Part shown: positions 1 to 3,504 of the stretch, piece after piece | How positions within the stretch are numbered: position 1 is the stretch's first letter | How the letters are laid out: each line of letters opens with the position of its first letter | Assembly (NCBI GenBank): GCA_028284955.1 | Contig: JANQQS010000060.1 | Span: 1 to 47,922 of the forward strand | Length of the DNA stretch: 47,922 bases | Reading direction: 5' to 3' | Source of the DNA: Myxococcota bacterium | Lineage (GTDB): Bacteria > Myxococcota_A > Polyangia > Polyangiales > Houyiibacteriaceae | Translations under genes and position numbers: made by a program | The notes under the pieces: model-generated | What the model was told of the DNA's origin: nothing | Seen by the model: the letters and a program-made list of their open reading frames with translations, nothing else | Databases searched by the model: none

Positions 1-46
1 CCAGCCGAAGTACCCGACGTACGTCGGCTGGCCTGCGCTGCCGGGG

Positions 47-83
47 CGCTCGCGCTCAGACCAAAATTTCACTGCTCTATGGG
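47..83 (-). repeat. Motif copy A (alternating inverted repeat)
   Basis: Read on the minus strand it runs CCATAGAGcagtG..ATTTTGGTCTGA..GCGAGCG. It pairs as an imperfect inverted repeat with copy B at 167-203 and matches copy C at 423-458 in the same orientation. The shared core is ATAGAG followed about 10 bases later by TTTTGGYCTGA. Confidence 0.6.
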
Positions 84-166
84 ATGCGACTTGCGTTGCC
101 ATCAACCCATCTGACCACTGCTCTAGAGCAAAGCCTGCTTGCGTTGATCGTAAACTCGAGTCGCGT

Positions 167-203
167 ACCATAGAGTGCTGGGATTTTGGTCTGATTGCGA
201 GCG
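167..203 (+). repeat. Motif copy B (alternating inverted repeat)
   Basis: Plus-strand copy: CCATAGAGtgctGGGATTTTGGTCTGATTGCGAGCG in two overlapping parts. With copy A it forms a long imperfect stem that extends inward through GGGATGCGACTT (81-92) and its near complement around 155-166. Confidence 0.6.
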
Positions 204-215
204 GCTGCTTTTCCC

Positions 216-258
216 GGGGGCGATGTCGCCCCCGCCCCATCGAATACATCCGATGGGG
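216..258. other. Two adjacent 8-bp hairpins
   Basis: First stem GGGGGCGA (216-223) / TCGCCCCC (226-233); second stem CCCCATCG (235-242) / CGATGGGG (251-258) with an 8-base loop. Both are perfect. No T-run follows on either strand, so a simple intrinsic terminator is not shown, but they could end transcription arriving from the minus-strand gene. Confidence 0.5.
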
Positions 259-422
259 CCCCACCCCTTACTGGACAGCGAACGACTGAGGAAGGCTCCG
301 AGCCTTTCGCAAGGAGAGAGCGAGGAGGTTGTTGCGACTGGAGCTGTGCATGGCGGAGCGGACGAAGTCCGTGAAGCTGCACTGGTCTAGACGCAGTACG
401 GGTCCGAAGGACCCTAGTCCAG

Positions 423-458
423 CCGCAATCAGGCCAAAAGATCAGTGCTCTCTATCGC
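423..458 (-). repeat. Motif copy C, containing the stop codon of the adjacent gene
   Basis: Minus-strand copy with core GATAGAG..CACTGATC and TTTTGGCCTGATTGCG. The TAG stop codon (454-452 on the minus strand) of the phosphotransferase-like gene lies inside the ATAGAG core, so the repeat begins exactly where that open frame ends. Confidence 0.55.
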
Positions 459-2251
459 CCGAGGCGGCGCGGGGCACGGTAGTTCCGCCACCGACGGTCG
501 TCTTCACGCCGTGATCGGATTCGTGATGCATAGGTGCCCGGAGTCCCCGCCGCCAGGTCACGCAGCTCGGATACGCGTAGATAGAAAACATCAGACGGTT
601 GATCTAGTTCCACCCGGTTCACCAGCCGTGCCCCCACATCGAGCGCTTGTTGTCGAAAGGCAAGCAATGCTCGAGATAGCGCCTCACCAACCACCCCCCG
701 CGCAAGCCCAATTTCCTTCAAGATGGCAAGCAACATACCCACGCGAACCTGCCTCATCGGAGACCCCAATCTCGCGCGGTGGCTGACGCGTAGTCGTGCA
801 ATCGTGTCTCGACGCGTTCGTTCGCGGGTGGATGGATCCCAGGAAGAAAGCAAACCAAACGCTTCGATGAGCGACTCATCGCTATCCCCAAAGGCCGGAA
901 CCCGCACGTCGACTCCCAAAGGACGTGCGTTTCGAAGTGATTGACGGATTTCGCGCCATTGCTGCGGATCCGCGAGTGGCCACTCGCGAAGCTCAGCGTT
1001 CGAACCCGCGAGGGCCCACTCGCGCGTGCAGTGGACCATACGCGCGTGTAGCTGGCGCCGAGACCGAACCGCGCGAGGCGACACCAACACTTCGGCTTCC
1101 GGCGCACTGATGGTAATTCCAGCACGCTCCAGCATCGAAACAGCCGCGACGCTCAAATCGCCAAACCCAAACAAAAGGAAAAACCCGTCAGCCACAACGC
1201 CCTGAATATCGCTAAGCAACGCGAGCGCAGTTTCCTCGCGACGCGCGCTTGCGAGATACGATGCGTGCAGCGCTTGAAGCCGTTGCTGGCTCTGTTTCCC
1301 GTATGCTTTCGCTTGTTGCCGGAGGGTCGACGCGCGAGTCGCGAGTCGCGAAAAAGCCACTCCTTCGCGCACTCCGGATCGCCAGCGACGCCTGCGGCCC
1401 ACACGCTGGTTTCTCGGAATTGAGCGGTAGGGCCGTCCATAGATGGTCCGAAACGGCGTCCCACGCGTGCGACTCTCCGGCGCTCGGAATGCTCGCTCCA
1501 TGGTGTCAAGAGTGAGCGGAGCCATCGTGCCCTCATCGCAGCCCATCAAATCTACACGTCTCAACACGCTGGACATGAAGGTGGGGGCCAGGCGAACACT
1601 ACGCACCGACAGCACCGAAACCTTTCCGCCACTCACGATCCACTCAATTTTCACTGGACGACCCAATGCGAGCTGAGCGCGATCGGCCAGGTCGGCGGCT
1701 TGCTCCACCAGTCGTGGCTGGAGTCCCTCACCATGCGTGACAATCCGGCCACTCCGGCGCTCGACCAGCCATGGAGCGGCCGGCGACGCGACACCCCAAA
1801 CGCTTACCTCGTCAGGATTTGAGCGAAGCGGCTCAACGCTCGCCGCCCACCCAAACGATCCTTTGTCCCGCGGAGCCACCACCATGCGCACCGCCGCGCC
1901 ACTGCTGCCCAACGCAAACGCGAGCTCCGGCGCCTCCAGTTCCTTCACAAGTCGAACAACCTTCGCTGAAAGGTCGGCGTCCTGGTCTTCGAAATCAACC
2001 GCGTGGGCTGCGCGGCGCTCAAATTGCTCTGCGGCAATGCCCTCCGGCAAAAGCGCCCGCACCGTAACAAGGGGAGACTCGTCGAGCGCCGTGCGAATCG
2101 CCGTCTCCAGTCGCTCGGCAGGGCGCGCCGTAGACATGGACACGATGAGCCCATCCGCTACGGAGACCCGTTCGTCCAACAACTGGACCAGCTCCAGCTC
2201 GCGAGACCCGAGCGTTCGCAACCCGTCGCGGCGCAGCTGTTTCAGAGGCAC
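452..2251 (-). CDS. Degenerate PEP-synthase / rifampicin-phosphotransferase-like protein lacking the phosphohistidine domain
   Basis: 599 aa. The segment around residues 185-220 (ADLADRAQLALGRPVKIEW...) matches the end of the PEP/pyruvate-binding (PPDK_N, ATP-grasp) domain. Residues ~530-575 (ARLVNRVELDQPSDVFYL) match the region just before the swivelling phosphohistidine domain of rifampicin phosphotransferase and PEP synthase. Known enzymes of this family are about 800-870 aa with a C-terminal catalytic histidine domain; here the protein stops right after the linker. The N-terminal nucleotide-binding half also looks short, with no clear catalytic loop. It is probably a non-catalytic relative or a decaying gene. 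It follows the thiolase by 59 bases on the same strand, so co-transcription is likely. The stop codon falls within repeat copy C. Family membership is moderately sure; function is unknown. Confidence 0.6.
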   Translation of the reverse strand: MPLKQLRRDGLRTLGSRELELVQLLDERVSVADGLIVSMSTARPAERLETAIRTALDESPLVTVRALLPEGIAAEQFERRAAHAVDFEDQDADLSAKVVRLVKELEAPELAFALGSSGAAVRMVVAPRDKGSFGWAASVEPLRSNPDEVSVWGVASPAAPWLVERRSGRIVTHGEGLQPRLVEQAADLADRAQLALGRPVKIEWIVSGGKVSVLSVRSVRLAPTFMSSVLRRVDLMGCDEGTMAPLTLDTMERAFRAPESRTRGTPFRTIYGRPYRSIPRNQRVGRRRRWRSGVREGVAFSRLATRASTLRQQAKAYGKQSQQRLQALHASYLASARREETALALLSDIQGVVADGFFLLFGFGDLSVAAVSMLERAGITISAPEAEVLVSPRAVRSRRQLHARMVHCTREWALAGSNAELREWPLADPQQWREIRQSLRNARPLGVDVRVPAFGDSDESLIEAFGLLSSWDPSTRERTRRDTIARLRVSHRARLGSPMRQVRVGMLLAILKEIGLARGVVGEALSRALLAFRQQALDVGARLVNRVELDQPSDVFYLRVSELRDLAAGTPGTYASRIRSRREDDRRWRNYRAPRRLGR

Positions 2252-2310: not shown

Positions 2311-3504
2311 TCAGACCCGCTCCACAACGACGGACACCGCTTCACCCCCCCCAATGCACAACGACGCGAGCCCGGTACGAGCCTCCCGAGCGACCATCGC
2401 ATGCAGCAAGGTAACCAAAATACGGGCGCCAGACGCTCCGATGGGATGGCCCAGCGCGACCGCACCACCGTTCACGTTGAGCTTTTCATGCGGGATCGCT
2501 AGCTTCGCCATGCAAGCCATCGCCACTGCGGAAAACGCTTCGTTGATTTCCCACAGATCAATATCCGCAATCTGCCTCTTCGCGCGCGCCAAGACTTTCT
2601 CGACTGCGCCAATTGGAGCGGTGGTGAACCACTCCGGCGCCTGGGCGTGTCCACCGTATTCGACGATACGCGCGAGAGGCTTGAGCCCGTGACGAGTGAC
2701 AGCCTCTTCGCTCGCGAGAATCAACGCCGCGGCGCCATCATTGAGCTTTGAGGCGTTCGCCGCAGTGATCGTGCCGTCTTTCTGAAACGCAGGTCTCAGC
2801 GAAGGCATCTTGTCAAAGCGAGCGCGCTTTGGTTCCTCATCCTCTTCGACGACGGTGTCGCCACGCCGCCCGGGAATCGTTATCGGAGCGATTTCCGATT
2901 TGAATGCGCCGTCTTCCTGTGCGCCGATCGCTCGGCGATACGACTCGATCGCGAACTCATCTTGCTGCTCTCGAGAGAAGCTGTACTCGCGCGCGCAGAG
3001 CTCGCCTGCTTCGCCCATGTGGTAATCGTGATAGGGGTCCCACAATCCATCGTGGATCACCGAATCGACAACCTTGTTGTGTCCCATTCGGTATCCGGCT
3101 CGAGCTTTCGGCAGCAGGTAGGGAGACAAGCTCATCGATTCCATCCCACCCGCCACGACGACGTCTGCGTCTCCGAGGAGAATGCTCTTGGCGCCGAGAA
3201 TCACCGACATGAGCCCCGAGCCGCACACTTTGCCCACCGTTGTGGCGGGTGCGCGATCCGGAATTCCGGCGGCCTTCGCGGCCTGTCGCGCAGGAGCTTG
3301 CCCTAGCCCTGCGCTGAGTACATTCCCGAAGTAAACCTCGTCGACCACGGACGCATCGCACCCGCCCTGCTCGAGCGCGCTCCGCGCAGCCGCGGCGCCG
3401 AGCGTGGTCGCCGCGACCGAACCCAGCGCACCGCAAAACGCTCCTATCGGAGTGCGGACGCCGGACACGATATAAATGTTCCGTTCTGATGCGTGCAGAC
3501 CCAT
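2311..3504 (-). CDS. Acetyl-CoA acetyltransferase (thiolase)
   Basis: 397 aa, normal thiolase length. It condenses two acetyl-CoA to acetoacetyl-CoA, or cleaves 3-ketoacyl-CoA, in the cytoplasm. Visible catalytic residues are the nucleophilic Cys94 in GKVCGSGL, His353 in GHPIGASG, and Cys383 in SLCIGGGEA. The conserved block VAGGMESMS is present around 118-126. The start ATG is preceded by GAGGAGG about nine bases upstream, a strong ribosome-binding site. The downstream partner is the phosphotransferase-like gene; the tRNA-Val lies just upstream. No other beta-oxidation or polyhydroxybutyrate genes are in the window, so whether it acts in degradation or synthesis is open. Confidence 0.95.
   Translation of the reverse strand: MGLHASERNIYIVSGVRTPIGAFCGALGSVAATTLGAAAARSALEQGGCDASVVDEVYFGNVLSAGLGQAPARQAAKAAGIPDRAPATTVGKVCGSGLMSVILGAKSILLGDADVVVAGGMESMSLSPYLLPKARAGYRMGHNKVVDSVIHDGLWDPYHDYHMGEAGELCAREYSFSREQQDEFAIESYRRAIGAQEDGAFKSEIAPITIPGRRGDTVVEEDEEPKRARFDKMPSLRPAFQKDGTITAANASKLNDGAAALILASEEAVTRHGLKPLARIVEYGGHAQAPEWFTTAPIGAVEKVLARAKRQIADIDLWEINEAFSAVAMACMAKLAIPHEKLNVNGGAVALGHPIGASGARILVTLLHAMVAREARTGLASLCIGGGEAVSVVVERV

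Follow-up and report, generated by a model that had tools for sequence, protein, structure and literature searches.

The repeated motif at the start of the window (the whole 47,922-nt stretch of DNA analysed) belongs to a long hairpin element with copies at the ends of about a hundred genes in this genome; one of its two ends, termed P, lies at stop codons. At one orthologous gene, the element was present, shrunk or absent among relatives. The element is probably a REP/MITE-like palindrome that is mobile but non-autonomous and inserts at the TA(G) of stop codons. This reading is supported by the number of copies, the sharp boundary at the P end, the placement at stop codons, the natural C-termini of the adjacent proteins and the share of TAG among their stops. 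Further support comes from an outer frame shared by copies whose inner hairpins are exchangeable, from the covariation of the stems, from the folding bias toward the antisense strand, and from a site found filled, reduced to a mini form or empty. The placement of one element end at the stop codon of the adjacent gene, which is the most telling of these features, was absent from the original prediction.

Copies in the window and anatomy of the element

The window corresponds to contig C51 of a draft genome (6,069,039 bases, 223 contigs) and begins at the contig end. The three motif copies in alternating orientation described in the original prediction were all present, with exact cores at positions 56-66 (TCAGACCAAAA, + strand), 184-194 (TTTTGGTCTGA) and 429-439 (TCAGGCCAAAA, + strand). 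The orientation of copies A, B and C alternates because the Q ends of elements 1 and 2 face each other (Table 1). The arms of A and B, which had been read as a long imperfect stem, were indeed complementary over 51 nt (78%), but they belong to two elements, not one; those of B and C were complementary over 28 nt (79%). The + strand fold had an energy of -239.9 kcal/mol (z = -9.4). For element 2 (169-454), the + strand folded better than the - strand (-149.0 versus -126.8 kcal/mol). Element 1 was matched by covariance model R1 on the - strand (positions 1-79, model positions 1-79, 63.9 bits). The 599-aa host ORF of element 2 (452-2251, - strand) adjoins a thiolase gene (2311-3504).

Table 1. 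Features of the two elements and their surroundings in the window
Feature	Positions	Strand	Remarks
Element 1, cut by the contig start	1-79	+ (sense, gene direction)	Q half alone; gene end off the contig
Element 1, inner hairpin CCAGCCGAAGTACCCGACGTACGTCGGCTGG	1-31		Inner hairpin of this type also found in complete copies
Element 1, Q arm, ending CACTGCTCTA	end at 79
Motif copy A, Q end of element 1	47-83	-
Q-tail module of element 1, TGGGATGCGACTTGCGTTGCCATCAACCCATCTGACCACTGCTCTAGAG	80-128	+	Repeat common to many other copies (Q-end column profile)
Facing tail module beside element 2, GAGCAAAGCCTGCTTGCGTTGATCG...GTACCA	126-170	-	Same words recur beside other copies
Element 2, complete	171-454	- (sense; gene reads into P end)	Q end 171, P end 454
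Motif copy B, Q end of element 2	167-203	+
Optional inner hairpin GGGGGCGATGTCGCCCCC	216-233		In the 154-156 and 245-246 spacing classes
Optional inner hairpin GCCCCATCGAATACATCCGATGGGGC	234-259		Repeat search and copy comparison
Central hairpin module GACTGAGG ... TTTCGCAAGGAG	275-329	+	R1 match 274-323; homologous in G008, G028
Optional hairpin module, conserved inner loop around GCGGAGCGGACGAAGTCCG	335-392	+	Also in G039, G052 and others
Optional hairpin GGGTCCGAAGGACCC	400-414
Motif copy C, P (gene-side) end of element 2	423-458	-
TAG stop of the 599-aa ORF	452-454	-	Coincides with P end of element 2; protein end ...RAPRRLGR*
Host gene of element 2, 599-aa ORF	452-2251	-	No Pfam match

In the genome-wide motif search that had been proposed as a check, the core TCAGRCCAAAA was found 181 times in the 6.07-Mb genome, as against once for a reversed-pattern control. 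A longer end pattern, TCAGRCCAAAANNNCRCYGCTCTA, occurred 115 times in this genome and was absent from 182 other genomes of the order. Copies were retrieved from about 100 places in the genome, and their comparison showed the element to be a long hairpin of about 127 to 290 bp with two unlike ends. The P end reads ...AGCCGCGATCAGGCCAAAAGGCCACTGCTCTA, beyond which no sequence is shared among copies; the Q end reads ...GCGCTCGCGCTCAGACCAAAATTCCACTGCTCTA, and further repeat modules often come next. The consensus ends are TAGAGC...GCTCTA and TAGTGTGCG...CGCACACTA. The distance between cores fell into five main classes (89-90, 154-156, 179-180, 193-194 and 245-246 bases), a consequence of the addition of optional hairpins to one basic hairpin at fixed positions. 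While the outer frame was common to the copies, the inner hairpins were exchangeable: within the basic class, several unrelated inner-hairpin sequences were found in the same frame, with stems that varied on both sides.

Several repeat families form a mosaic in the intergenic DNA. The Q ends of the element adjoin other repeat modules, namely a tail, TATGGGATGC..., and a hairpin, AGGGTCTGGCACCCAGACCCT (window positions 80-170; loci L006, L011, L013, L019, L031 and L036), and locus L009 contains 2.7 tandem copies of a 57-bp unit of Q-end sequence (1381-1538). Many contigs of the draft genome start or stop inside an element, with the core at about base 74-86 of the contig; the repeats thus appear to break the assembly, so that copy counts in fragmented genomes are minimal.

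Placement at stop codons

Gene ends were taken from open frames of at least 240 bases running toward the element, not from annotation. For 81 of the 86 P ends with enough flanking sequence, a stop codon lay at -10 to +3 nt, and in 54 it coincided exactly with the TAG of the element. The corresponding values for random window positions were 4.3% and 0.3%, while Q ends gave 13 of 66. The stop codon was TAG in 80 of 93 element-adjacent genes, compared with 14 of the 32 genes in the window. According to a codon-usage score, the genes on the P side read toward the element in a ratio of 66:2 in this genome and 32:0 in relatives; the Q-side neighbours in this genome were mixed (13 toward the element, 12 away).

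The element-adjacent proteins had natural-looking C-termini, by which they appear to include DnaK-, enolase- and E2-like proteins. Since these C-termini are natural and read-through frames 1 and 2 were practically absent, truncation of host genes by insertion was discarded. Neutral targeting of TAG was rejected as a sufficient explanation, since the window contains 57 intergenic TAGs to 14 TAG stops, a roughly fourfold excess, and yet the intergenic ones are hardly used. The tight association of the P end with stop codons could derive from targeting, from selection favouring a hairpin there, or from both, and its sharpness offers a handle for separating these causes in repeats located at gene ends.

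Structure, strand asymmetry and occurrence in relatives

Covariance analysis among relatives, the other check that had been proposed, revealed strong covariation. In an alignment of 53 matches, 87.8% of the cells paired and 40 of 48 pairs had changed on both sides; the covariation score was 0.629, compared with 0.096-0.123 for slid controls, a gap larger than that explained by the fitting of the alignment to the model, which in itself favours structure. In the stems, structure and not sequence is conserved. Together with the copy number, this result supports the options that the original prediction had offered (a small non-autonomous mobile element, a palindromic intergenic repeat family or a structured RNA).

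The strand antisense to the host gene folded better in 56 of 58 copies of this genome, in 64 of 65 copies of relatives and in 26 of 28 from further genomes. Mismatches in the outer stems were G.T on the antisense strand in 128 cases and on the sense strand in 47; a single conserved loop edge accounted for many of those on the sense strand. Because the model derives from the antisense strand, hit selection could explain part of the strand bias, although the 58 copies used in the fold test of this genome were found by motif, independently of the model. The better-folding, G.U-tolerant strand would suit a small RNA, either cis-antisense or separate, whose transcription runs from the Q side to the 3'-end of the host gene, and at L232, which lies between two tRNA genes, the model strand is the transcribed one. 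We consider such an RNA very unlikely, since the same asymmetry is expected if a DNA hairpin is recognised on one of its strands, and the mixed orientation of the Q-side neighbours provides no constant promoter context. Further, the Rfam search gave no match at the gathering score and nothing convincing at a relaxed threshold, so that a known RNA family was discarded. Nor did the flank profiles show a T tract following the hairpin, as in an intrinsic terminator; the conserved sequence on the Q side was TATGGGATGC.

At two loci (L224 and L263), the palindrome extends beyond the element into the end of the gene by 9-10 nt, of which an inverted copy lies on the Q side. This is what arm-templated (quasipalindrome) repair would produce: the copying of one arm onto the other, gene-end sequence included, would yield covariation and pairing of the stop codon in a manner not involving selection. 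Such extensions were rare among 65 loci, most stems beginning at the stop codon, and templated repair alone predicts neither the strand bias of the mismatches nor conserved positions in internal loops, which makes it a highly improbable explanation.

Public records hold same-family relatives, among them Myxococcales bacterium SG8_38 and uncultured Polyangiaceae, and the host is accordingly taken to be a myxobacterium. DNA similarity searches of other genomes detected matches to pieces of the element only. Covariance model R1 found the element in 31 of 57 near relatives, which represent 13 of 33 genera, and model R2 in at least 45 of 377 genomes of the phylum, other classes included, a lower bound given that nine candidates per genome were scored. 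At one of the matches found by DNA similarity, in a genome of another family (G033), the same layout was present behind the TAG of a superoxide-dismutase-like gene; the outer stem differed in sequence and was still paired. A stop codon (TAG, TGA and TAA all occurred) was found -5 to +4 nt from the P side in 45 of 65 matches from 18 relatives. In more distant genomes of the phylum, adjacency to a stop codon was seen at some loci and was absent at others, and several elements adjoined tRNA genes. The P end adjoins a tRNA gene (at its 5' or 3' end), not a stop codon, at loci L131, L232, L284 and L291. In genome G039, element-related hairpins lie within GGGAACG-like simple repeats (L136 and L138), those of L136 being in tandem about 123 bp apart.

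Some copies were retained at orthologous genes with compensatory changes in the stem, as behind a NuoD-like gene (genomes G023, G024 and G028) and behind a ribonucleotide-reductase-like gene (G026 and G031). This retention is what would be expected of an RNA that serves the host, namely a hairpin in the 3'-UTR that starts at the stop codon, regulates the decay of the mRNA, the access of Rho or the termination of translation, and is maintained by selection and copied only occasionally. The fixed orientation of the P-side genes agrees with this possibility, as does the finding that in 29 of 49 cases the whole stop codon, irrespective of which of the three it was, paired with the Q end. We nevertheless hold it to be a rather unlikely alternative. 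In the sense mRNA the mismatches would be mostly C.A, the G.U-compatible strand being the antisense one; of the 183 genomes of the order, only one had the end pattern that marks the subfamily present here; and several relatives lack the element, or keep 30 bp of it, at the orthologous gene described below.

That gene, which encodes a protein ending in ...EMAWSSPIFFN, was traced through public genomes. A full element lay directly behind it at L307, L310, L312 and L313, while at L309 (2560-2589), L311 (2566-2595) and L315 (2527-2556) there was only a 30-bp mini palindrome (e.g. TAGTGTGCGGATCTTTTCTCTCGCACACTA). At L314, L317 and L324 the gene had no element, and at L308 the outer right end alone was apparently kept. 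When the sites were aligned, the empty form ...TAGTGC... corresponded to the filled form ...TAG[TGTGCGG...CGCACAC]TAGTG..., with TAG on both sides. A putative flanking target duplication, which had been named as a sign of a mobile repeat, was read at this single locus, where the alignment fits an insertion at TA or TAG with a duplication of 2-3 bases, the two targets being indistinguishable. The series of filled, mini and empty sites shows gain and/or loss of the element, plus decay by internal deletion. The 30-bp forms, which consist of the outermost two ends only and lie at the same orthologous stop codon, are either deletion remnants or a solo form.

Possible mobilisation and comparison with known systems

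Under the preferred reading, that of a mobile palindrome, an enzyme would recognise the folded single strand that is antisense to the host gene, and would insert this strand at TA or TAG. In this genome the target would nearly always be a TAG stop, so that the element end would keep or supply the stop codon and leave the protein intact. After insertion, transcription through the element would yield a strong hairpin that begins at the stop codon and may protect or attenuate the 3'-end of the mRNA. Composite forms would arise as inner hairpin modules are added at fixed positions, and internal deletion would cause copies to decay.

The search for a transposase covered the DDE_3 and Y1_Tnp domains. 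No DDE_3 domain (IS630) was found in the genome, and an IS630/mariner origin through DDE_3 was discarded for this reason. The genome contains a single ORF for a Y1/IS200-like transposase (302 aa; L135 1432-2340, G000 C158), beside which there was no element. The covariance model gave no match in 30 Y1-transposase loci (that of this genome and 29 of relatives), and ten element-bearing genomes had no Y1_Tnp match; a link to RAYT was thus rejected. The lack of DDE_3 and of an element flanking the single Y1 gene argues against mobility, as do the reading of the duplication at one locus only, with TA and TAG inseparable, the retention of some copies of relatives at orthologous genes with compensatory changes, the scant use of intergenic TAGs, and the few copies that adjoin tRNA genes instead of coding genes. 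Another explanation is a phylum-wide mobile element that would be aimed at stop codons, or at other gene ends such as those of tRNAs, by the sensing of gene ends (e.g. through RNA or the terminating ribosome), and not by a DNA sequence combined with purifying selection; we judge it quite unlikely.

If it is a mobile palindrome, the element would represent a family of large REP-like elements that spans the phylum, taken to be the Myxococcota, has no adjacent RAYT, and in this genome occupies the stops of about a hundred genes. The natural series in which the same gene carries a full element, a 30-bp remnant or none makes the role and spread of a REP-like palindrome testable. A search of the literature for myxobacterial repeats of this type, or for MITEs targeted to stop codons, retrieved nothing relevant. 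REPs of E. coli located near stop codons reportedly stall ribosomes; this plays no part in the present argument.

Three known systems resemble the element in part. Integron attC sites are hairpins at gene 3'-ends that are conserved in structure, not in sequence, and are preferred as one single strand, and the element shares the three traits. However, it lacks the RYYYAAC and GTTRRRY end boxes (AAC/GTT core) of attC, having the consensus ends given above, and its copies are scattered at housekeeping genes instead of forming cassette arrays. MITEs (e.g. those of the TA-targeting IS630 type) resemble it in their terminal inverted repeats, the absence of a gene, the many copies and the TA (or TAG) on both sides, the last seen at one orthologous locus. 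Nevertheless, nearly all copies of the element are oriented and lie at stop codons and its structure is kept over a phylum, in addition to which no IS630 transposase (DDE_3) was found in the genome.

Among described elements, the GTAG REP comes closest. REP elements of the GTAG (and CGTC) type and BIMEs are mobilised by RAYT transposases (PMC3733652, PMC2817692); GTAG REPs sit near gene 3'-ends, and their termini often provide the flanking ORFs with a TAG stop (PMC3733652). The element resembles them as a repeated extragenic imperfect palindrome that occurs in alternating orientation, shows complementary changes in its stem, is sited beside gene 3'-ends and supplies TAG to ORFs. In contrast, the GTAG foot is not conserved: when the stop codon and the TAG of the element coincided exactly, the base preceding TAG gave 29 CTAG, 12 GTAG, 5 TTAG and 2 ATAG, and TGA and TAA occur in relatives. 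At about 127 to 290 bp, the element is several times longer than a REP (20-40 bp), the 30-bp minis of one locus apart, and it contains several inner hairpin modules. It also diverges far more than the known bacterial REP repeats do. In addition, the Y1 transposase genes at 30 loci were not flanked by it. The element thus combines REP-like behaviour with a greater length and with the lack of two features that define REPs, a GTAG foot and a flanking RAYT, and it is therefore classed as a REP/MITE-like mobile palindrome.
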